A stretch of DNA of 36,344 nt, from assembly GCA_012515825.1 (NCBI GenBank), contig JAAYXQ010000027.1, forward strand, positions 1-36,344, read 5' to 3'. Numbering within the stretch: the stretch's first letter is position 1; every line of letters begins with the position of its first letter. The notes under the pieces are model-generated. The model saw only the letters and a list, made by a program, of their open reading frames with translations, was not told the DNA's origin and did no database searches. The translations under genes were made by a program, and so were the position numbers. This stretch comes from Fibrobacter sp. (lineage in GTDB: Bacteria > Fibrobacterota > Fibrobacteria > Fibrobacterales > Fibrobacteraceae). Shown in pieces: positions 23,737 to 31,664 of this stretch.

Positions 23737-24976
23737 GGTCATTCTAAAAAATGTTCGTCCTTTTATTGACGGAGCTTTTCAAACACCTACGACCATGAAT
23801 CTTGTGGAAGGCCGTTGGGTCGATGAATCAATTGAAGGTGCTACTGAAATAGATGCTAAGGGAGCACTTGCTCTACCAGCTCTTTTTGCTTTGGGGCTTG
23901 ATTTTCAGGAACCTCTCCGAGATGATATATACACTTTCCAAAATGGTTATACTGCCATGCGTCGTGGCGGATTTTACGGTGGAATATATGAAAGTACTGC
24001 AAACCCTATTGATAATGTTCAGAAGTTAAGTGCTATACAACAGGTATTTTCAAAAAGTGGATTACATCTTTCCATTTTAGGTGCTTTTAGTAAACACCAT
24101 ATGTGTGAGCAGCTATCTGAGATGTTAGAGCTTGCTTCGTGTGGAGTATGTGGCTTTGGAGATGGAAACCATTTAAATGCTACGACTCGCTTTTTACGCT
24201 TAGCGATGGAATACGGTGCGATGACATCCAAGCGTTTTTTCTTTTTGCCTCTAGATCTTTCTTTACGCTGTGCAGGATGTGTTCATGAAGGGGATGTGGC
24301 TGATGTTCTCGGAATGAAGGGTATTCCTAGAATTGCTGAGACTATCGTAGTGCACACCATTTTAGAAACAGCTCTTTTCTTGAATGTTCCAATTCATTTA
24401 AAACAAATTACTTGTTCAGAATCTTTAAACCTAATTGAACAAGCGAGAGCTCGAGGTCTAGACGTCACTTGTGATGTAGGGCTTTATCATTTACTATTTG
24501 ATGATCAAGCTATTTTCAATTTGGATTCTCACTATTATATTATTCCACCTCTTCGTACTCCTAAAGATAAAGAAGCTCTTTGGGATGGTCTTAAGCGAGG
24601 GGTGATTGATGCTATTAGCTGTAATCATACCCCCGTTCTTCGTCAAGAGAAAGAAGTAAATTTTGAAGATGCAGTTGCGGGCGCTATTTCTTTAGAAGTT
24701 GCTTTACCAGCGATTTGGTCTACATTAGTAGACCACGTCGGTGAACGACGGGCGCTGGATTTACTTTCATTCAATCCAGCGAAAATCGCTTCAGCCATGC
24801 CTCAAAAGATTGAAAAGGGAACGATAGTCAATTTAGTCCTTTTGGATCCTAAGGAACAGAGTCAAGTCACGCCAGAGAAACTTGCAGGAGCTGTCCGAAA
24901 TACACCTCTATTGAATGCTCAATTACCTAGTGCTATTAAAGGCTCTTATATTCATGGGGTTTGGACTCAGGTCTAA
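23729..24976 (+). CDS. pyrC: Inactive dihydroorotase-like protein (PyrC', pseudo-DHOase)
   Basis: A 415-residue amidohydrolase-fold protein of the dihydroorotase family. The start is GTG 23729, supported by GGGAGG eight bases upstream; the track ATG at 23675 lies deep inside pyrB. The fold is recognisable (ALPALFALGLDFQEP, IIPPLRTPKDKEALWDGL). The metal-binding HxH has become LDF, the usual IHVCHVS reads IHLKQIT, EVTPHHL reads DVGLYHLL and the catalytic DHAPH reads NHTPV. Losing the key ligands means it is almost surely not an active dihydroorotase. In Pseudomonas and relatives such a PyrC' (PyrX) is required to assemble PyrB. The 8-base overlap with pyrB suggests the same role, and an active pyrC should exist elsewhere. 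Confidence 0.92.
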   Translation: MNKVILKNVRPFIDGAFQTPTTMNLVEGRWVDESIEGATEIDAKGALALPALFALGLDFQEPLRDDIYTFQNGYTAMRRGGFYGGIYESTANPIDNVQKLSAIQQVFSKSGLHLSILGAFSKHHMCEQLSEMLELASCGVCGFGDGNHLNATTRFLRLAMEYGAMTSKRFFFLPLDLSLRCAGCVHEGDVADVLGMKGIPRIAETIVVHTILETALFLNVPIHLKQITCSESLNLIEQARARGLDVTCDVGLYHLLFDDQAIFNLDSHYYIIPPLRTPKDKEALWDGLKRGVIDAISCNHTPVLRQEKEVNFEDAVAGAISLEVALPAIWSTLVDHVGERRALDLLSFNPAKIASAMPQKIEKGTIVNLVLLDPKEQSQVTPEKLAGAVRNTPLLNAQLPSAIKGSYIHGVWTQV

Positions 24977-24978
24977 TT

Positions 24979-25974
24979 ATGATTGAGCCCTTCGTCTTAA
25001 TATGGATTGCAGTAATAGTTATTTTATTACTACTACTTTTAGTATTAATCGAAATACAGCGAAGTGAAAAACGTCGTGAAAACGAAGAGATGTTTGGGAC
25101 TCAAAGCTTTGAAAGGAAAAAATTACTTTTCGGTTTAACAGAAAAGGAAACGCATACAATAGAAAAATTAGTCCGCCAGTCTACTTTTTCGAATAAGGAT
25201 GCTGTTTTTAATTCCTCTAGTCTATTTGAAGAAGCTGTAAATCGATTTTATAACTTTCGTAAAATCAATCAGATTCGTACGGAAACATTAGCTTCCGTTT
25301 CTTCTTTAAGAGAAAAGCTTGGCTTCACTGTCAATCATCCTCATGTTCTTTTAACGAGTTCAAGGCAATTTGTAGTGGGGATTAAGGTTACTCTTCTTTC
25401 CTCCTTGAAAACAAACAAAGAACATACTGTAGTTACAAGTGTGGACGAAAAAAGTTGGAAGGTAAGAGTATCAGGAGTTTGGGAAGAGGAATTTTATCAT
25501 ACGTTAGAAGGGTCTTTTATACTCATGCGTTGGACTCAACCAGAAGAGGCCGTTTACTCTGGAAAAGTAAAAGTTTTGAAAGTGACAGGTAATGAATTAG
25601 AACTTTCTCATTTAATTGAGTTTGAAAAACTACAATTAAGACGTTGGATTCGAGAACAAGTCTTATTTCCTGTTCAAGCATTTCTATCGAGTTCGTCTAA
25701 GTTGGAAGGCTTTTTGTTTGATTTATCTGCAGGAGGTATTCTAATTGGGTTACCAGTAAGTGAAATACCAACTCATGAAATAGAAATACAGTTTAGATTA
25801 CCTGGCTTTGGATTAGAACGTGTAAAAATTGAAATTTTACGTAATTTAGGCAAAAAAAGGCAAGAATACCCCGATTTATATTTATACACCGCTTCCTTTT
25901 CAGGTGAATTTGGTCGTATCCAAGAAAAGGTGCTTCAATACATATTTCAGGTTCATAAAAAGAAAAAGACGTAA
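24979..25974 (+). CDS. Membrane-anchored PilZ domain protein
   Basis: A 331-residue protein with a very hydrophobic N-terminal helix (about 3-26), a helical linker, a beta-rich middle resembling YcgR N-domains and a C-terminal PilZ domain. The two parts of the cyclic-di-GMP signature are present: Arg221-x3-Arg225 (RRWIR) and Asp248-x-Ser-x-x-Gly253 (DLSAGG). The start at 24979 is chosen over the track TTG at 24961, which lies inside pyrC'. It follows pyrC' by two bases, so it may ride on the pyr transcript, and immediately precedes the pilM promoter. Its likely role is to relay cyclic-di-GMP to the pilus machinery or the envelope; direct contact with pilus proteins is inference. Confidence 0.85.
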   Translation: MIEPFVLIWIAVIVILLLLLLVLIEIQRSEKRRENEEMFGTQSFERKKLLFGLTEKETHTIEKLVRQSTFSNKDAVFNSSSLFEEAVNRFYNFRKINQIRTETLASVSSLREKLGFTVNHPHVLLTSSRQFVVGIKVTLLSSLKTNKEHTVVTSVDEKSWKVRVSGVWEEEFYHTLEGSFILMRWTQPEEAVYSGKVKVLKVTGNELELSHLIEFEKLQLRRWIREQVLFPVQAFLSSSSKLEGFLFDLSAGGILIGLPVSEIPTHEIEIQFRLPGFGLERVKIEILRNLGKKRQEYPDLYLYTASFSGEFGRIQEKVLQYIFQVHKKKKT

Positions 25975-26094: not shown

Positions 26095-27183
26095 TTGGCT
26101 TCTGATTTTATTTCACATATGCTTGGCGATCGACAAACGGTCGGAATTGATATTGGTCATTACAGTATCAAGCTGGTTCGTGTATTTCATAGTCATCGAG
26201 GGAATATTCAAGTCACCGCTGTTGATTTGGAACGTATACCAGAAAAGACTTTAGAAGATGGGCAAATCAAGGATTCTGAAAAATTAAGAGAAGCTTTGTC
26301 TAAAATTATGGCAAGGCAAGTAAGCGATCGAGAAAAGGTGGATATCGTCGCTGGGATTAATAGTGCATCTGGAGTGCTTGTCGATAAGCTAACCGTTAAA
26401 GTGCCAAAGAATGCAAATGAAGATGCAATCATTGTTCAGACGGCACAAGCTCGTCCTCCTTTTGATGACCAGGATAACATATTAGATTATCAAGTTTATG
26501 ATCGCCAAGACGGTGAAATTAAAGTCAATATTGTGGCTGCAAAAAATGCGCTGTTAGATTCATGGGCTGAGTTTTATAAAGATTCCGATGTTCGCTTAAA
26601 CGCCATTGATGTGGATGTTTTTGCTTTAGCGAACGTTTATATGATGTCTGCAGAGGAAGAAGAGAAAAAAGAAACGGTGGCTATTTTTGATATTGGTGAA
26701 AAAAAGGCTAGCCTTGTCTTTTTAATGGGAGGCTTTTTTCATTCTACTCGAGCTTTGACTAGTGGTTCAATGGAGTCTGTGATCAATATGCTTTGTCGTC
26801 ATCTTGGTATAGACGTTGCAAAGTGTCATGAAATATTTGAAAGTGACAAACCTGTCATGATCGATGGTTTCTCTGAGGCGGACATTGAGTCTGCTATGCA
26901 GCTCGCTTTTGAAGAAGTCGTTGGAGCATTAGAATTTGGTATTCGATATTTCTCTAATTCAGAAGCTGGAGAGAAACCAAGTAAAATTTTATTGAGTGGT
27001 GGAGGCGTTAGTCTTTCTGGTTTATGTGAATATATCGAAGAACGAATTGGAATTCACACAGAAGCCTTGAGCCCTTTCGAAAAAGTTTCTTGTGCACCAG
27101 AAGTCGTTGGTGAATCAGGTCTTTCTAAAGCGTTAGTTAATATTTATGCTCCCGCACTTGGGTATGCCATGAGGAAATTCTAA
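26095..27183 (+). CDS. pilM: Type IV pilus assembly protein PilM
   Basis: Actin-like cytoplasmic ATP-binding protein that anchors the pilus alignment subcomplex by binding the PilN N-terminal peptide. The 362-residue product has GIDIGHYSIKLVRV near residue 17 (phosphate 1), FDIGEKKASLVFL near 200 (phosphate 2) and LLSGGGVSLSGL near 300 (adenosine). The start is TTG at 26095 with CGGAG six bases upstream. It is the first gene of pilM-N-O-P-Q, and its stop overlaps pilN by one base. Confidence 0.95.
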   Translation: MASDFISHMLGDRQTVGIDIGHYSIKLVRVFHSHRGNIQVTAVDLERIPEKTLEDGQIKDSEKLREALSKIMARQVSDREKVDIVAGINSASGVLVDKLTVKVPKNANEDAIIVQTAQARPPFDDQDNILDYQVYDRQDGEIKVNIVAAKNALLDSWAEFYKDSDVRLNAIDVDVFALANVYMMSAEEEEKKETVAIFDIGEKKASLVFLMGGFFHSTRALTSGSMESVINMLCRHLGIDVAKCHEIFESDKPVMIDGFSEADIESAMQLAFEEVVGALEFGIRYFSNSEAGEKPSKILLSGGGVSLSGLCEYIEERIGIHTEALSPFEKVSCAPEVVGESGLSKALVNIYAPALGYAMRKF

Positions 27184-27785
27184 TGGCAGAAAAGAAAAAT
27201 AAACTTTGTGTTGAAATCAATTTACTTCCTGCTGAATATAGGAAGGTTAAAAATGATTTAAGCTGGATCTTAGATCGTCGTATTGTATGGCCAATTGTCG
27301 CCTTGTTAGTCGTAGCCGTACTTATCTTTTTATTAATACTTCATATTGAAGATGTGACTTCTTCTTTAGAAAATGAGTTGCAGACGACTCTTGCTGAAGT
27401 AGAAAAAGAAAAACCATTACTTAATAAAATCACTGAACTAGATAATAAACTTTCGGTGATCGCCCAAAAAAATAATGCACTTAAATCAATTCAAGTCAGT
27501 AAAAAAAGATGGGTCATTCTTTTTGAAAACATGTCATCCATTTTGCCTCCAAATATGTGGCTTACGAATTTAAATCAGATTGGTGCAAATGAAATGGAAT
27601 TAAAAGGGTTTACTTATGACTTTTCTGAAGTTGCAGAATACATGGTCAAACTCGAAAAACAGGTTAGTATTAGTTCAGTCAACTTAATCTCTATAGCGAC
27701 AACGAAAACAGGCGGAGAAGATACCTATAATTTTACTATTAAAGCAGCGATTAAACAGGATCTTGGCCTGGAAGGAGCTAAGTAG
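27183..27785 (+). CDS. pilN: Type IV pilus assembly protein PilN
   Basis: A 200-residue bitopic inner-membrane protein. The cytoplasmic peptide EINLLPAEYRK near residue 10 carries the INLLP motif that docks into PilM. Next come one membrane helix (about 34-54), a coiled coil and a periplasmic ferredoxin-like domain (NMWLTNLNQI, ELKGFTYDFSEVAEYM). It dimerises with PilO in known systems. It overlaps pilM by one base and precedes pilO by two bases. Confidence 0.93.
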   Translation: MAEKKNKLCVEINLLPAEYRKVKNDLSWILDRRIVWPIVALLVVAVLIFLLILHIEDVTSSLENELQTTLAEVEKEKPLLNKITELDNKLSVIAQKNNALKSIQVSKKRWVILFENMSSILPPNMWLTNLNQIGANEMELKGFTYDFSEVAEYMVKLEKQVSISSVNLISIATTKTGGEDTYNFTIKAAIKQDLGLEGAK

Positions 27786-27787
27786 TT

Positions 27788-28387
27788 ATGGGTAATTTTG
27801 ATTGGAAAGACAAAAAAAATATTTTTGCTATTCTAGTAGTGCTTTTGATTGGTGGTGTTAGTTTTGCTTTTTATCAATATAAATGGACTACTTTTGAAAC
27901 TAAAAAACAAGAATTAGAACAACAGTTAACTAGCGCTCGCGATGACTTAGCTAAAATTAATGTTCAAAAAAATAGAATCGCAGAGTTGAGTCTTCGTTTG
28001 GCTCAAGCAGAGAATGAATTTGAACGTCTTAAAGAGATGTTCCCAGAAGAAGAAAAAGTACCTCTGCGTTTACAAGATTTATATGCCGTGTTAAGAAGTT
28101 CTGGTGTGCAGATTCAAAAATTCAATCCAGAAGGTCGTGAGCCCAAAGACTACTATATTGAAAACAAGTATTCTATTGTAGTGAATTCTGGTTACCATAT
28201 GCTTGGCTATCTTTTTGCTGAGATTGCAAATTTTAATTATCCTACTTCAATTACGGATTTGCGTTTAGGACGTTTTTCTGGCATTGCGACAGAGCTTGAA
28301 AAAGCGGAGACTCATGGATGGACTCCAATTACCGTTTCTGTCTCATTTAAATTGACCACTTACACATCCAAGAAGGTTGCGCAATGA
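27788..28387 (+). CDS. pilO: Type IV pilus assembly protein PilO
   Basis: A 199-residue bitopic inner-membrane protein paired with PilN. One membrane helix (about 12-30), a coiled coil (about 36-80, TKKQELEQQLTSARDDLAKI) and the PilO-type periplasmic domain (VPLRLQDLYAVLRSSGVQIQKFNP, YHMLGYLFAEIANF). It overlaps the next gene by four bases (ATGA). Confidence 0.92.
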   Translation: MGNFDWKDKKNIFAILVVLLIGGVSFAFYQYKWTTFETKKQELEQQLTSARDDLAKINVQKNRIAELSLRLAQAENEFERLKEMFPEEEKVPLRLQDLYAVLRSSGVQIQKFNPEGREPKDYYIENKYSIVVNSGYHMLGYLFAEIANFNYPTSITDLRLGRFSGIATELEKAETHGWTPITVSVSFKLTTYTSKKVAQ

Positions 28388-30114
28388 AAAAAATAAAAGC
28401 CCTTCTTCTTATCTTTTTTGTAGTGTCGACTTCTTTTGCTGCTGATGTTAAAGATGTTAGTATGCAGTGTCAAAAAGAAGCTTGTCAATTAGTTTTTCAA
28501 TTTGTTTCCTCCAAAAACTTGCCTAGTTTTTTTCAAAAGTATGATCCAAAATCAAAAATATTAACGGTTGCTTTTTCTGAGACAAATTTTCTTTTAGGCG
28601 ATGGAACGTTTGATTTGAATCCTACTTCTCCTTTAATTCAGAAAATGAAAGTATTTAAGGAAACCAATAAAAAAGTGTCCTTGCTAAAATTTGAGTTTAA
28701 TGTTGGAGATTTAATTAAAACAGATAAAAATAAAATAGAGCTTGTTAAAGAAACTCATTTTATGATTGTTCTTCCAAAAGCAAATGATAAGGGTTGGGTT
28801 TTATCTAAAAAGTTTAAGGAATTAAAGAAGGCCGCGGAGAAAGCAACACTTGAAGAAAAGAAACGTCTAGCAGAAGAAAAGAAGGCCGCAGAGAAAGCAG
28901 CTCTTGAAGAAAAAAAACGCTTAGCAGAAGAAAAGAAGGCAGCAGATAAAGCGGCACTTGAAGAAAAGAAACGTAAAGCAGCAGAAAAAAAGACTGCAGG
29001 AAAAGCAACAGTGGTAGAGACTAAAAATGTTGCTGAATCAAAGCCTGTGTCGGCTTTAATTGACGGTGTTCAAGAGATGATCGCTTTGTCTAGTTTTGGT
29101 TTAGAACAATTCCAATTAGTGACAGATGATAAAATAATTTTAACAAATGTTGGTCCATTGAATAAACAAGTGATTACGATTGGCTTAGCTGGGCCTTCCA
29201 AATCACCTGTATTTAAAATAAGTAGAAGCTCCATAGTAAAGTCTATATATTGGAGTTCTTTTGGTTTGAACTTAGAACTTCAACCAGGAATTGAGCCTTC
29301 AGTACTTGTTCGAAATGGAATTTTGATTTTACAGAAGCCTTCTGATAAAAAGATAGAGGGAATGTGGTATTGGCATGCAAAACCAACAGGCATTCATGAA
29401 CGTCAATGGATTAGCACCAAATCGACATCCTCTTCTTTTGATTCGTTTGCAAAAAGATTAGAACCTGAATCTAAAAAAATAGTTTCAGTAGCTCAGACTT
29501 TTTACCTTCGCCCTACTGCAAGAGAATTAATCGTTGTTTCTGAAGAAACAGAATTGTATGCGGCTGCAAGTGAAAAATCTCAAGTTTTACAGCGTGTTGT
29601 TTTTGGTGAACGATTAGTAAGTCTTGAAAATACAGGTTTGTTTCAGAAAGTGCAGTATAATAATAAAACAGGCTTTGTTTATAAAAGAGCCGTTTCTTTC
29701 CGTGACGAATTATCAAGCATTCAATTAGAACGATTAAAACAGATGGCTTTTGAAAAAGGTGAAAATCTGGATTCGATTGCTTCTCGGTTTGAAAAAATTA
29801 CAGAAGATCGAGTGACATATAGTTCTTTTGGTCGTAGAGATCCTTTTGTTGAAATTAAAGGTTTAGTAGAAGAAGGAATTAATATTGATCAGGTGGAATT
29901 AGTGGGAATTATTTGGGAAACCGAAGAACCTATGGCTATTCTTGCTGAAAGTAAAAATCCATCTATTTCTTATACCGTTAAAGAAGGTGATAAAATCTTG
30001 AACGGAAAAGTGCTTAAAATTACATCAACAGACGTACTGTTCTTAATCCAAGAATTTGGAGTCAGTCGTCGTTACTCCATGGGTTTGCCCGATAAATATG
30101 GGAGTTTAAAATGA
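28384..30114 (+). CDS. pilP: Multidomain PilP fusion: AMIN-like, coiled repeat, SH3-like and PilP domains
   Basis: A 576-residue exported protein in the pilP position. After a signal peptide (KALLLIFFVVSTSFA) comes an AMIN-like beta domain (about 20-135), then a Lys/Glu/Ala-rich helical repeat (about 148-205). A second beta region of uncertain type follows (about 230-325), then a bacterial SH3-like module (about 380-442: ELYAAASEKSQVLQRVVFGERL, TGFVYKRAVSF). Last is a PilP domain (about 480-576: FGRRDPFVEIKGL, VELVGIIWE, YTVKEGDKILNGKVLKI). PilP proteins I know are about 170-200 residues and link PilN/PilO to PilQ. AMIN domains normally sit on PilQ and bind peptidoglycan; here that function may have moved to PilP. 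The SH3-like module may add wall binding. No lipobox Cys. The PilP part is clear; the N-terminal domain names are less so. Confidence 0.85.
   Translation: MKKIKALLLIFFVVSTSFAADVKDVSMQCQKEACQLVFQFVSSKNLPSFFQKYDPKSKILTVAFSETNFLLGDGTFDLNPTSPLIQKMKVFKETNKKVSLLKFEFNVGDLIKTDKNKIELVKETHFMIVLPKANDKGWVLSKKFKELKKAAEKATLEEKKRLAEEKKAAEKAALEEKKRLAEEKKAADKAALEEKKRKAAEKKTAGKATVVETKNVAESKPVSALIDGVQEMIALSSFGLEQFQLVTDDKIILTNVGPLNKQVITIGLAGPSKSPVFKISRSSIVKSIYWSSFGLNLELQPGIEPSVLVRNGILILQKPSDKKIEGMWYWHAKPTGIHERQWISTKSTSSSFDSFAKRLEPESKKIVSVAQTFYLRPTARELIVVSEETELYAAASEKSQVLQRVVFGERLVSLENTGLFQKVQYNNKTGFVYKRAVSFRDELSSIQLERLKQMAFEKGENLDSIASRFEKITEDRVTYSSFGRRDPFVEIKGLVEEGINIDQVELVGIIWETEEPMAILAESKNPSISYTVKEGDKILNGKVLKITSTDVLFLIQEFGVSRRYSMGLPDKYGSLK
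28825..28986 (+). repeat. Three tandem 54-base repeats inside pilP
   Basis: Three 54-base copies (28825-28878, 28879-28932, 28933-28986) each encode an 18-residue unit like KKAAEKAALEEKKRLAEE, giving a charged single helix. The third copy has diverged at its end (KRKAAE). Copy number could vary between strains. Confidence 0.88.
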
Positions 30115-31664
30115 ATTCAATGACTCGAATGGTAATGGTTTTGCTGTTAATGGTAGCTACTCTTTGGGCTGCTCCTGCAGAGGGATCCGTAGCTCCAAAT
30201 AAGAAGCTATATGACTTCTCATTTGTCGATATTGAGTTTGACGCTGCATTTAGATCTCTTTCCATTGCAGCTGGAGTTGATATTTTACTTTCTCCAGATG
30301 TCAAAGGGAAATTGAATTTAAAAGTCTCTAAGAAGACATGGCAAGAAACATTAGATATTATCTGTGAATTAAATGATTTAGTATGGTTAGTTCAAGATAA
30401 GTATATCTCTATTCAAAGGCTTGCTTCCTATCAAGCAAAGCAAAAGAAGATTGCTGAACAAGAAGAGCAAAGTCAAGAGGTTGCTCCTCTGATTCGTAAG
30501 AACTTCGCTATTCGTCATGCCAAGGCCCAAGATTTAGTAAGTGTTTTAGAAACAATGAAATCGAAAAGAGGCAAAATTACCGTTGTAGAAAGGACTAATT
30601 CGATTATTGTATATGATACCGATGCAAGTATTGTTCAAATGAAAAATGCTTTAGACGAATTGGATGTGGAAACTCTCCAAATCATGATTACGGCAAAATT
30701 AGTGGTGGTCAATAGTAATCTTGCTCGTGAATTAGGTGTTGATTGGACAAGCGCGATGGGCTCAACGGCGTTAACGCCAGGCGTCGCTTCTGCACCAAAT
30801 GGAAGTAATGCCGGCGGAACAAGAACAAGTGCTGCCATTCAATCATTCCCTAATAACGGAGTATCTGGTTTACCTGGAGCAGCGACTTCTTTAACTGCAA
30901 GTATTTTAGATAACAATTTGCAAATTGCTATTAATAGCATTATGGGAGACGCTTCTACAGAAATTTTAGCAAGTCCTCAAGTATCTACTTTAGATAATAC
31001 TGAGGCCATTGTTTTTATGGGTGATAAAGTTTCCATTCGTGTGATTGATGATGCAGGCGAATCTTCAACACAGCTTGTAGAAACTGGTATTAAGTTGACT
31101 GTCACACCTCATGTTTCTGGAGATAACCGTATTCTTTTAGATTTACATCCAGAGAATAATTCTTATGATTATGACACCAAAGGTGAAATAGTGATCAGCA
31201 CTCAAGAAGCTAAGACCAAAGTGGTTGTAGCTGATGGTGAAACGGTCGTGATTGGTGGATTAACAAGAAATGAAGATGTGGAGTCTGAAAGTGGAATTCC
31301 TTTCTTAAAGGATATCCCTATTTTAGGAAATTTATTCAAATACACGAAAAAATCAGTGACAAAGAAAGACCTCGTCATATTTGTTACCCCTCGTATTATT
31401 CGTAATTATATCGGTAATGTACAAACATCAGAACCTTCGGAAGAAAAAGTGCAGCGTTTGGTAGATAATCAACCCGCTCCTGTAACTTCTCCTGCAAAAG
31501 AAGAATCAAATAAAGTTCCTGTACAGCAAGAACAACCAGCGACACAACAGGCTCCTGCTGTATCAGAACCTCCACCAGCACCCGCTGCTCCAGTAAATGA
31601 TGCTCAGCAAAATGAGGTTCCTCAAAATGATGAAGCCACAGCTGAAGAAGGTGAAGATTGGTAA
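30111..31664 (+). CDS. pilQ: Type IV pilus secretin PilQ
   Basis: The 517-residue outer-membrane secretin. After a signal peptide (to about LWA) come an STN/N0 domain (about 30-105: FVDIEFDAAFRSLSIAAGVDILLSP), an N1/secretin_N domain (about 125-200: FAIRHAKAQDLVSVL, TNSIIVYD) and the secretin beta-barrel domain (about 200-433: EILASPQVSTLDN, LVETGIKLTVTP, VVIGGLTRNEDVE, VIFVTPRII). A Pro/Gln/Ala/Glu-rich tail follows (about 440-517). No AMIN domain fits before N0, unlike many PilQ. Overlaps pilP by four bases. Confidence 0.95.
   Translation: MNSMTRMVMVLLLMVATLWAAPAEGSVAPNKKLYDFSFVDIEFDAAFRSLSIAAGVDILLSPDVKGKLNLKVSKKTWQETLDIICELNDLVWLVQDKYISIQRLASYQAKQKKIAEQEEQSQEVAPLIRKNFAIRHAKAQDLVSVLETMKSKRGKITVVERTNSIIVYDTDASIVQMKNALDELDVETLQIMITAKLVVVNSNLARELGVDWTSAMGSTALTPGVASAPNGSNAGGTRTSAAIQSFPNNGVSGLPGAATSLTASILDNNLQIAINSIMGDASTEILASPQVSTLDNTEAIVFMGDKVSIRVIDDAGESSTQLVETGIKLTVTPHVSGDNRILLDLHPENNSYDYDTKGEIVISTQEAKTKVVVADGETVVIGGLTRNEDVESESGIPFLKDIPILGNLFKYTKKSVTKKDLVIFVTPRIIRNYIGNVQTSEPSEEKVQRLVDNQPAPVTSPAKEESNKVPVQQEQPATQQAPAVSEPPPAPAAPVNDAQQNEVPQNDEATAEEGEDW

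Follow-up and report, generated by a model that had tools for sequence, protein, structure and literature searches.

A candidate wall-binding AMIN domain on PilP instead of the secretin PilQ in the type IVa pilus operon of Fibrobacterota

The stretch of DNA analysed here (the window, 36,344 nucleotides) is contig JAAYXQ010000027.1 of a Fibrobacter sp. (assembly GCA_012515825.1, 1.89 Mb, 75% complete; phylum Fibrobacterota) and carries a pilM-pilN-pilO-pilP-pilQ operon (26095-31664; forward strand, as are all features given below), whose genes overlap or nearly overlap, with 4-base overlaps among them. From its sequence and the predicted structure of PilP, this appears to be an operon for the alignment complex and secretin of a type IVa pilus, with the wall-binding module carried by PilP instead of PilQ, a reading to which we assign a probability of roughly 0.6; it suggests that in Fibrobacterota another part of the pilus machine makes the attachment to the wall. 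In Pseudomonas aeruginosa, the AMIN domains of PilQ bind peptidoglycan and, by way of PilP, draw PilMNOP to the site of division (PMC5285504). An AMIN domain on PilP is not a local oddity of the window, as the trait is found throughout the phylum and in several others.

PilP of the window (28384-30114) is encoded by one intact open reading frame (ORF) of 576 residues, about 3.3 times the length of the PilPs of Acinetobacter and Aeromonas, which occupy the same operon position and have 175-177 residues; a first-pass annotation, made by a model from the sequence alone, had put it at about three times the normal length. The same annotation had arranged the protein as an AMIN-like domain, a helical repeat, a second beta region and an SH3-like module ahead of the PilP domain proper, and this is the layout returned by AlphaFold2 (run with 58 homologues): a signal peptide (residues 1-19), beta domain 1, a helix, beta domain 2, an SH3 domain and the beta-sandwich of the PilP homology region (HR). 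The predicted local confidence (pLDDT) exceeds 85 in most blocks of the four globular domains; their relative placement is undefined in the model (predicted TM-score, pTM, 0.36). The signal peptide (28384-28440, MKKIKALLLIFFVVSTSFA) has no lipobox, and no plausible N-terminal lipobox is found in most other Fibrobacterota PilPs either; the lipoprotein signal, a trait of Neisseria and Pseudomonas PilP that is not decisive for membership in the family, is thus absent from the window protein.

The N0-binding HR (residues ~478-570, 29815-30093) begins at the motif YSSFGRRDPF, and its residues Y479, G483, R485, D486, P487, F488, G508, G541 and F553 are invariant across 51 PilPs; pLDDT is 79-91 over its beta-sandwich (residues ~500-567). 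A Foldseek search of the full PilP model against 350,542 PDB chains matches this region to the PilP structures 3jc8_Pa, 2lc4, 2y4y and 2ivw with probability 1.00, and the gene lies between pilO and pilQ, the operon position of a pilP. The structural matches make the identity of the protein as PilP secure despite the Pfam PilP model, which misses the window protein and gives weak matches in 13 of 51 Fibrobacterota relatives.

Beta domain 1 (residues 20-131, 28441-28776; pLDDT ~89-97) is assigned as an AMIN domain by fold match together with profile comparison. The top Foldseek match of the full model is the PilQ chain 3jc8_Qa of the Myxococcus type IVa pilus model (E 1.2e-4), and the PilQ B2/AMIN domain 4aqz also matches, with probability 1.00; these matches most likely come from beta domain 1 rather than beta domain 2, since the latter finds no AMIN structures when searched alone. 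Pfam and NCBIfam report no AMIN domain on the window PilP (nor does Pfam on the window PilQ), so that fold and profile methods are needed to see it; a sequence search of the PDB with PilP returns the SH3 domain and unrelated weak matches only. In profile comparisons by hhalign, a profile of beta domain 1, built from the alignment of the window's own family (f1) only, scores 84% over the whole domain against nine AMIN reference domains (60 column shuffles reach at most 4.1%) and 82% against 87 AMIN domains drawn from PilP and PilQ of phyla other than Fibrobacterota (shuffles at most 1.4%), whereas the SH3 domain and HR of the same protein, taken as controls, score 0.2% against the nine domains and below 1% overall. 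The AMIN-like domain that the annotation had placed on PilP thus stands well above its shuffled controls. In the first hairpin of this domain, Cys29 and Cys34 (28468-28485) are invariant in 41 aligned relatives, which suggests a disulfide.

Beta domain 1 is followed by a single alpha-helix (residues 140-201, 28801-28986, from DSSP of the AlphaFold2 model), rich in Ala, Glu and Lys and encoded by a 54-bp tandem repeat of 3.4 copies with 83% matches (28824-29007). Across the family, 34 to 214 residues separate the two beta domains, a variation that suits a spacer. Beta domain 2 (residues 229-343, 29068-29412) is a predicted beta-sandwich with pLDDT mostly above 90 in the full model and 92.5 when folded alone; folded alone, it has no significant fold match in the PDB (best E 0.084 in Foldseek). 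Its profile reaches 62.7% against the 87 AMIN domains (shuffles at most 1.0%) and only 6.7% against the nine-domain set. A second AMIN domain, considered for this position, was dropped because the domain folds confidently by itself and yet shows no AMIN fold match; it could at best be a degenerate AMIN. The SH3-like module of the annotation is borne out as a bacterial SH3 domain (residues 381-440, 29524-29703; pLDDT 92-94): SH3_3 is the only significant Pfam match on the window PilP (E 4.8e-6, 27.1 bits, cut-off 27), and Foldseek confirms the fold with 9ovi (root-mean-square deviation, rmsd, 2.0; TM-score, TM, 0.82).

PilQ of the window (30111-31664, 517 residues) is recognised by TIGR02515 (E 5.3e-82; 276.1 bits, below the cut-off of 284.35) and by Pfam, with N0 (STN, residues 37-103, 30219-30419), Secretin_N (residues 132-188, 30504-30674; E 3.1e-11) and the secretin barrel (residues 281-431, 30951-31403; E 6.1e-45) in the expected order. 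It had been described as passing from the signal peptide straight to N0, and this is the case: only 36 residues, signal peptide included, precede N0, which leaves no room for an AMIN domain, and a hidden one is excluded by length. The annotation had staked its case on PilP containing AMIN and SH3 folds and on PilQ hiding no AMIN, and it stands on both counts. The extension before N0 is similarly short (25-71 residues) in 44 of the 45 Fibrobacterota PilQs, from 10 families; the exception (L090, 906 residues) was rejected as an AMIN-bearing PilQ, being a mis-started ORF. No AMIN domain is found in these 45 proteins by Pfam or by an AMIN hidden Markov model (HMM; 0/45), and the alignment of all Fibrobacterota PilQs scores 1.4% against AMIN in hhalign. 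At its other end, the window PilQ carries an 86-residue tail after the secretin domain (31404-31661), rich in Pro, Glu and Gln; the length of this tail varies from 3 to ~107 residues across Fibrobacterota.

Across the phylum, nearly every sampled operon has a PilP, and the pilMNOPQ operons recovered combine a long PilP (~313-793 residues where complete) with a short PilQ; a long PilP beside an AMIN-less PilQ is the phylum-wide arrangement in Fibrobacterota. SH3_3 is present in 33 of the 51 PilPs and the AMIN HMM matches 18 of them. AMIN-like N termini are found directly by profile in the PilPs of families f7, f9 and f11 (70-94%), and through similarity to beta domain 1 in those of families f2, f3 and f4 (69-97%); family f8 is left out of this tally, its sequence set including a member of f7 (L107). 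A genome-wide search for a displaced AMIN protein finds none in the source genome, and AMIN proteins occur in three of 168 Fibrobacterota genomes, two of them being amidases. One 311-residue protein of a distant Fibrobacterota family (L123:1363-2295, G167) has one domain that Pfam recognises as AMIN, another stretch that resembles AMIN and a hydrophobic segment at its C-terminal end; it stands apart from any pil operon seen. In a genus of the same class (g15, G160-G163), four genomes, three of which are 98-100% complete, have no match to PilP or PilQ; this genus has possibly lost the pilus machine.

The sample outside the phylum comprised 224 genomes, with PilP matches to a Fibrobacterota query in 21 and PilM searches in 160 others, and gave 75 adjacent PilP-PilQ pairs (two of them proteobacterial references) that were scored for AMIN. 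The domain is on PilQ only in 49 pairs, on PilP only in six, on neither protein in 20 and on both in none. For five of these six (L148, L149, L152, L153 and L159), Pfam confirms the domain on PilP; all six operons came via the Fibrobacterota query, and their number is no estimate of frequency among bacteria at large. A further operon from outside the phylum (L147:2536-4329, G266) encodes a 598-residue PilP that has two SH3 domains in addition to stretches with a weak resemblance to AMIN; its PilQ lies beyond the contig end.

In a maximum-likelihood tree of PilQ cores, all Fibrobacterota form one clade (support 100/99), and a larger clade (support 100/99) unites them with five of the six rows that have AMIN on PilP and with two AMIN-free rows; there is no PilQ AMIN anywhere inside it. 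Among its members from outside Fibrobacterota, every row but one has AMIN or SPOR on PilP. SPOR, another known peptidoglycan-binding module, is located at the C-terminus of one PilP (L155:3623-4486, G225; Pfam 9e-15) next to an AMIN-less PilQ, and in the other AMIN-free row (L239) PilP has a C-terminal extension of no recognised family. The sixth row with AMIN on PilP (L148:3630-4418, G292) branches elsewhere, next to a row with AMIN on PilQ (L221), and is thus likely a second, independent relocation; the tree is most simply explained by two exchanges, one of them ancient. The PilP-or-PilQ pattern and the AMIN-free PilQ clade indicate that, in an ancient ancestor shared by several phyla, PilQ probably lost its wall-binding module and PilP gained it, and they support the proposal of the first-pass annotation that the module moved from the secretin to PilP.

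Peptidoglycan binding by the window PilP is inferred from its domains: the AMIN domain, perhaps together with the SH3 domain and beta domain 2, would bind peptidoglycan, while the HR would dock on N0 of PilQ, as in known PilPs, the two roles being combined in one protein. The pore would then be held to the wall by the collar that PilP forms in connection with PilN and PilO, and the helix would determine how far the pore lies from the point of wall contact. In such an assembly the PilMNOP subcomplex would be the first to locate the wall at the septum or pole and would recruit PilQ afterwards, in reverse of the Pseudomonas order. That the anchoring role passed from secretin to PilP collar in a single ancient step within the multi-phylum branch, with the inner-membrane complex finding the wall of the division site and bringing the secretin to it, is a more tentative proposal, which we place a little short of even odds.

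Several observations weigh against a wall anchor on PilP. The Trp of the SH3 ligand site, which has been tied to ligand binding in SH3b proteins elsewhere (see the discussion in PMC7614798), is Phe in the window protein (motif LFQKVQYNNKTGFV) and mostly Tyr or Phe in its relatives. Within the window's own family, ten PilPs (genus g4) have neither the AMIN domain nor the helix and retain only beta domain 2, SH3 and HR. AMIN is absent from both proteins in 20 of the 75 outside pairs, so that an AMIN anchor is not obligatory, and the source genome encodes LysM proteins, which could supply an anchor of the TsaP or FimV type instead. The lack of overlap between AMIN on PilP and AMIN on PilQ, which speaks for the relocation, has a chance of 0.0011 given the margins (hypergeometric), but the counts behind it are not phylogenetically independent. 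As for beta domain 1, its identity to AMIN sequences is ~9-14% and it has no match to Pfam AMIN (PF11741); of its structural counterparts, 3jc8 is an architectural model, and 4aqz was aligned at rmsd 6.0 and TM 0.51 in a multi-domain search.

The best-surviving alternative, though an unlikely one, is that the extra domains of PilP are protein-protein modules that build a larger periplasmic collar through PilN, PilO or neighbouring PilQ subunits and make no contact with peptidoglycan. The N terminus of P. aeruginosa PilP does bind PilNO (PMC5285504), and the window PilP, having no lipobox, may need extra contacts to stay with them; SH3 domains can bind proteins, and beta domain 2 matches no wall-binding fold. 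However, AMIN, SH3b and, in one relative, SPOR are common bacterial wall-binding modules, and AMIN on PilP takes the place of AMIN on PilQ instead of adding to it, which favours a wall contact on PilP.

It is distinctly improbable that loss from PilQ and gain on PilP are unrelated events, in which case a TsaP- or FimV-like LysM protein would be the anchor and the elongation of PilP would reflect drift or some other role. The LysM genes of the source genome and the operons with AMIN on neither protein would fit this, as would the AMIN-less PilQs already on record (27 of 197 secretins; PMC7545093); but unrelated events sit poorly with the complete avoidance of double AMIN in the 75 pairs, and all sampled Fibrobacterota families keep a long PilP, most with a recognisable AMIN or SH3. 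Slighter still are the prospects of beta domain 1 being a beta-sandwich that resembles AMIN by analogy only, to which the missing Pfam match, the low identity and a shallow family profile (effective number of sequences, Neff, 3.1) would lend themselves, but which is opposed by the scores of 82-84% against two AMIN reference sets with controls near zero, by those of 70-94% at the PilP N terminus of other Fibrobacterota families, and by Pfam-level AMIN domains on PilP of relatives outside the phylum.

With a wall-binding PilP as the preferred reading, the operon shares with the type IVa PilMNOPQ systems of Pseudomonas, Myxococcus and Neisseria its gene order, the HR of PilP, the N0, Secretin_N and secretin domains of PilQ, and the theme of AMIN and wall binding; it differs in that those systems have one to three AMIN domains on PilQ and a PilP of ~175 residues, whereas here AMIN is placed on a 576-residue PilP without lipobox and is absent from PilQ. 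A functional parallel to the proposed PilP is found in type II secretion systems (T2SS), where GspB/OutB (and ExeA/ExeB) likewise joins binding of secretin N0 through an HR to holding of the secretin on peptidoglycan, as described for OutB of Dickeya (PMC9239104); this is, however, a different system, in which a C-terminal extension contacts the wall, AMIN and SH3 are lacking, and GspC is a second HR protein. FliO, with lineage-specific AMIN or LysM domains in some phyla (PMC12248157), is another core component of an envelope machine that carries wall-binding modules; unlike PilP, it belongs to the flagellar export apparatus, which has no secretin, and no exchange with a partner protein is reported there. 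An earlier report of AMIN on PilP was not found in the open-licence literature.

The AMIN-less PilQs of PMC7545093 show the same loss as the window PilQ; that work remarks that the loss merits investigation and, in the part used here, does not state where the module went, whereas in the present clade it lies on PilP. For one large branch, the PilP-or-PilQ pattern offers an answer to the question posed there of why some PilQs lack AMIN. It also amounts to a naturally occurring domain swap, useful for finding out which subcomplex determines where the pilus machine sits, and the prediction can be tested with proteins of the cultured Fibrobacter succinogenes. The published pilus inventory of the Fibrobacteres (PMC4704652, Table 4) lists PilM, PilN, PilO and PilQ but not PilP; the diverged HR escapes standard models. 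The present reading would correct this annotation.

The remaining genes of the operon are identified by their Pfam matches, as is pilQ by Secretin: pilM (26095-27183) by PilM_2 (E 1e-29), pilN (27183-27785) by PilN (E 1.1e-15) and pilO (27788-28387) by PilO (E 1.7e-14). Upstream of pilM, the window encodes a membrane protein (24961-25974) with a weak match to PilZ (E 0.003), a possible link between cyclic di-GMP (c-di-GMP) and the pilus operon.

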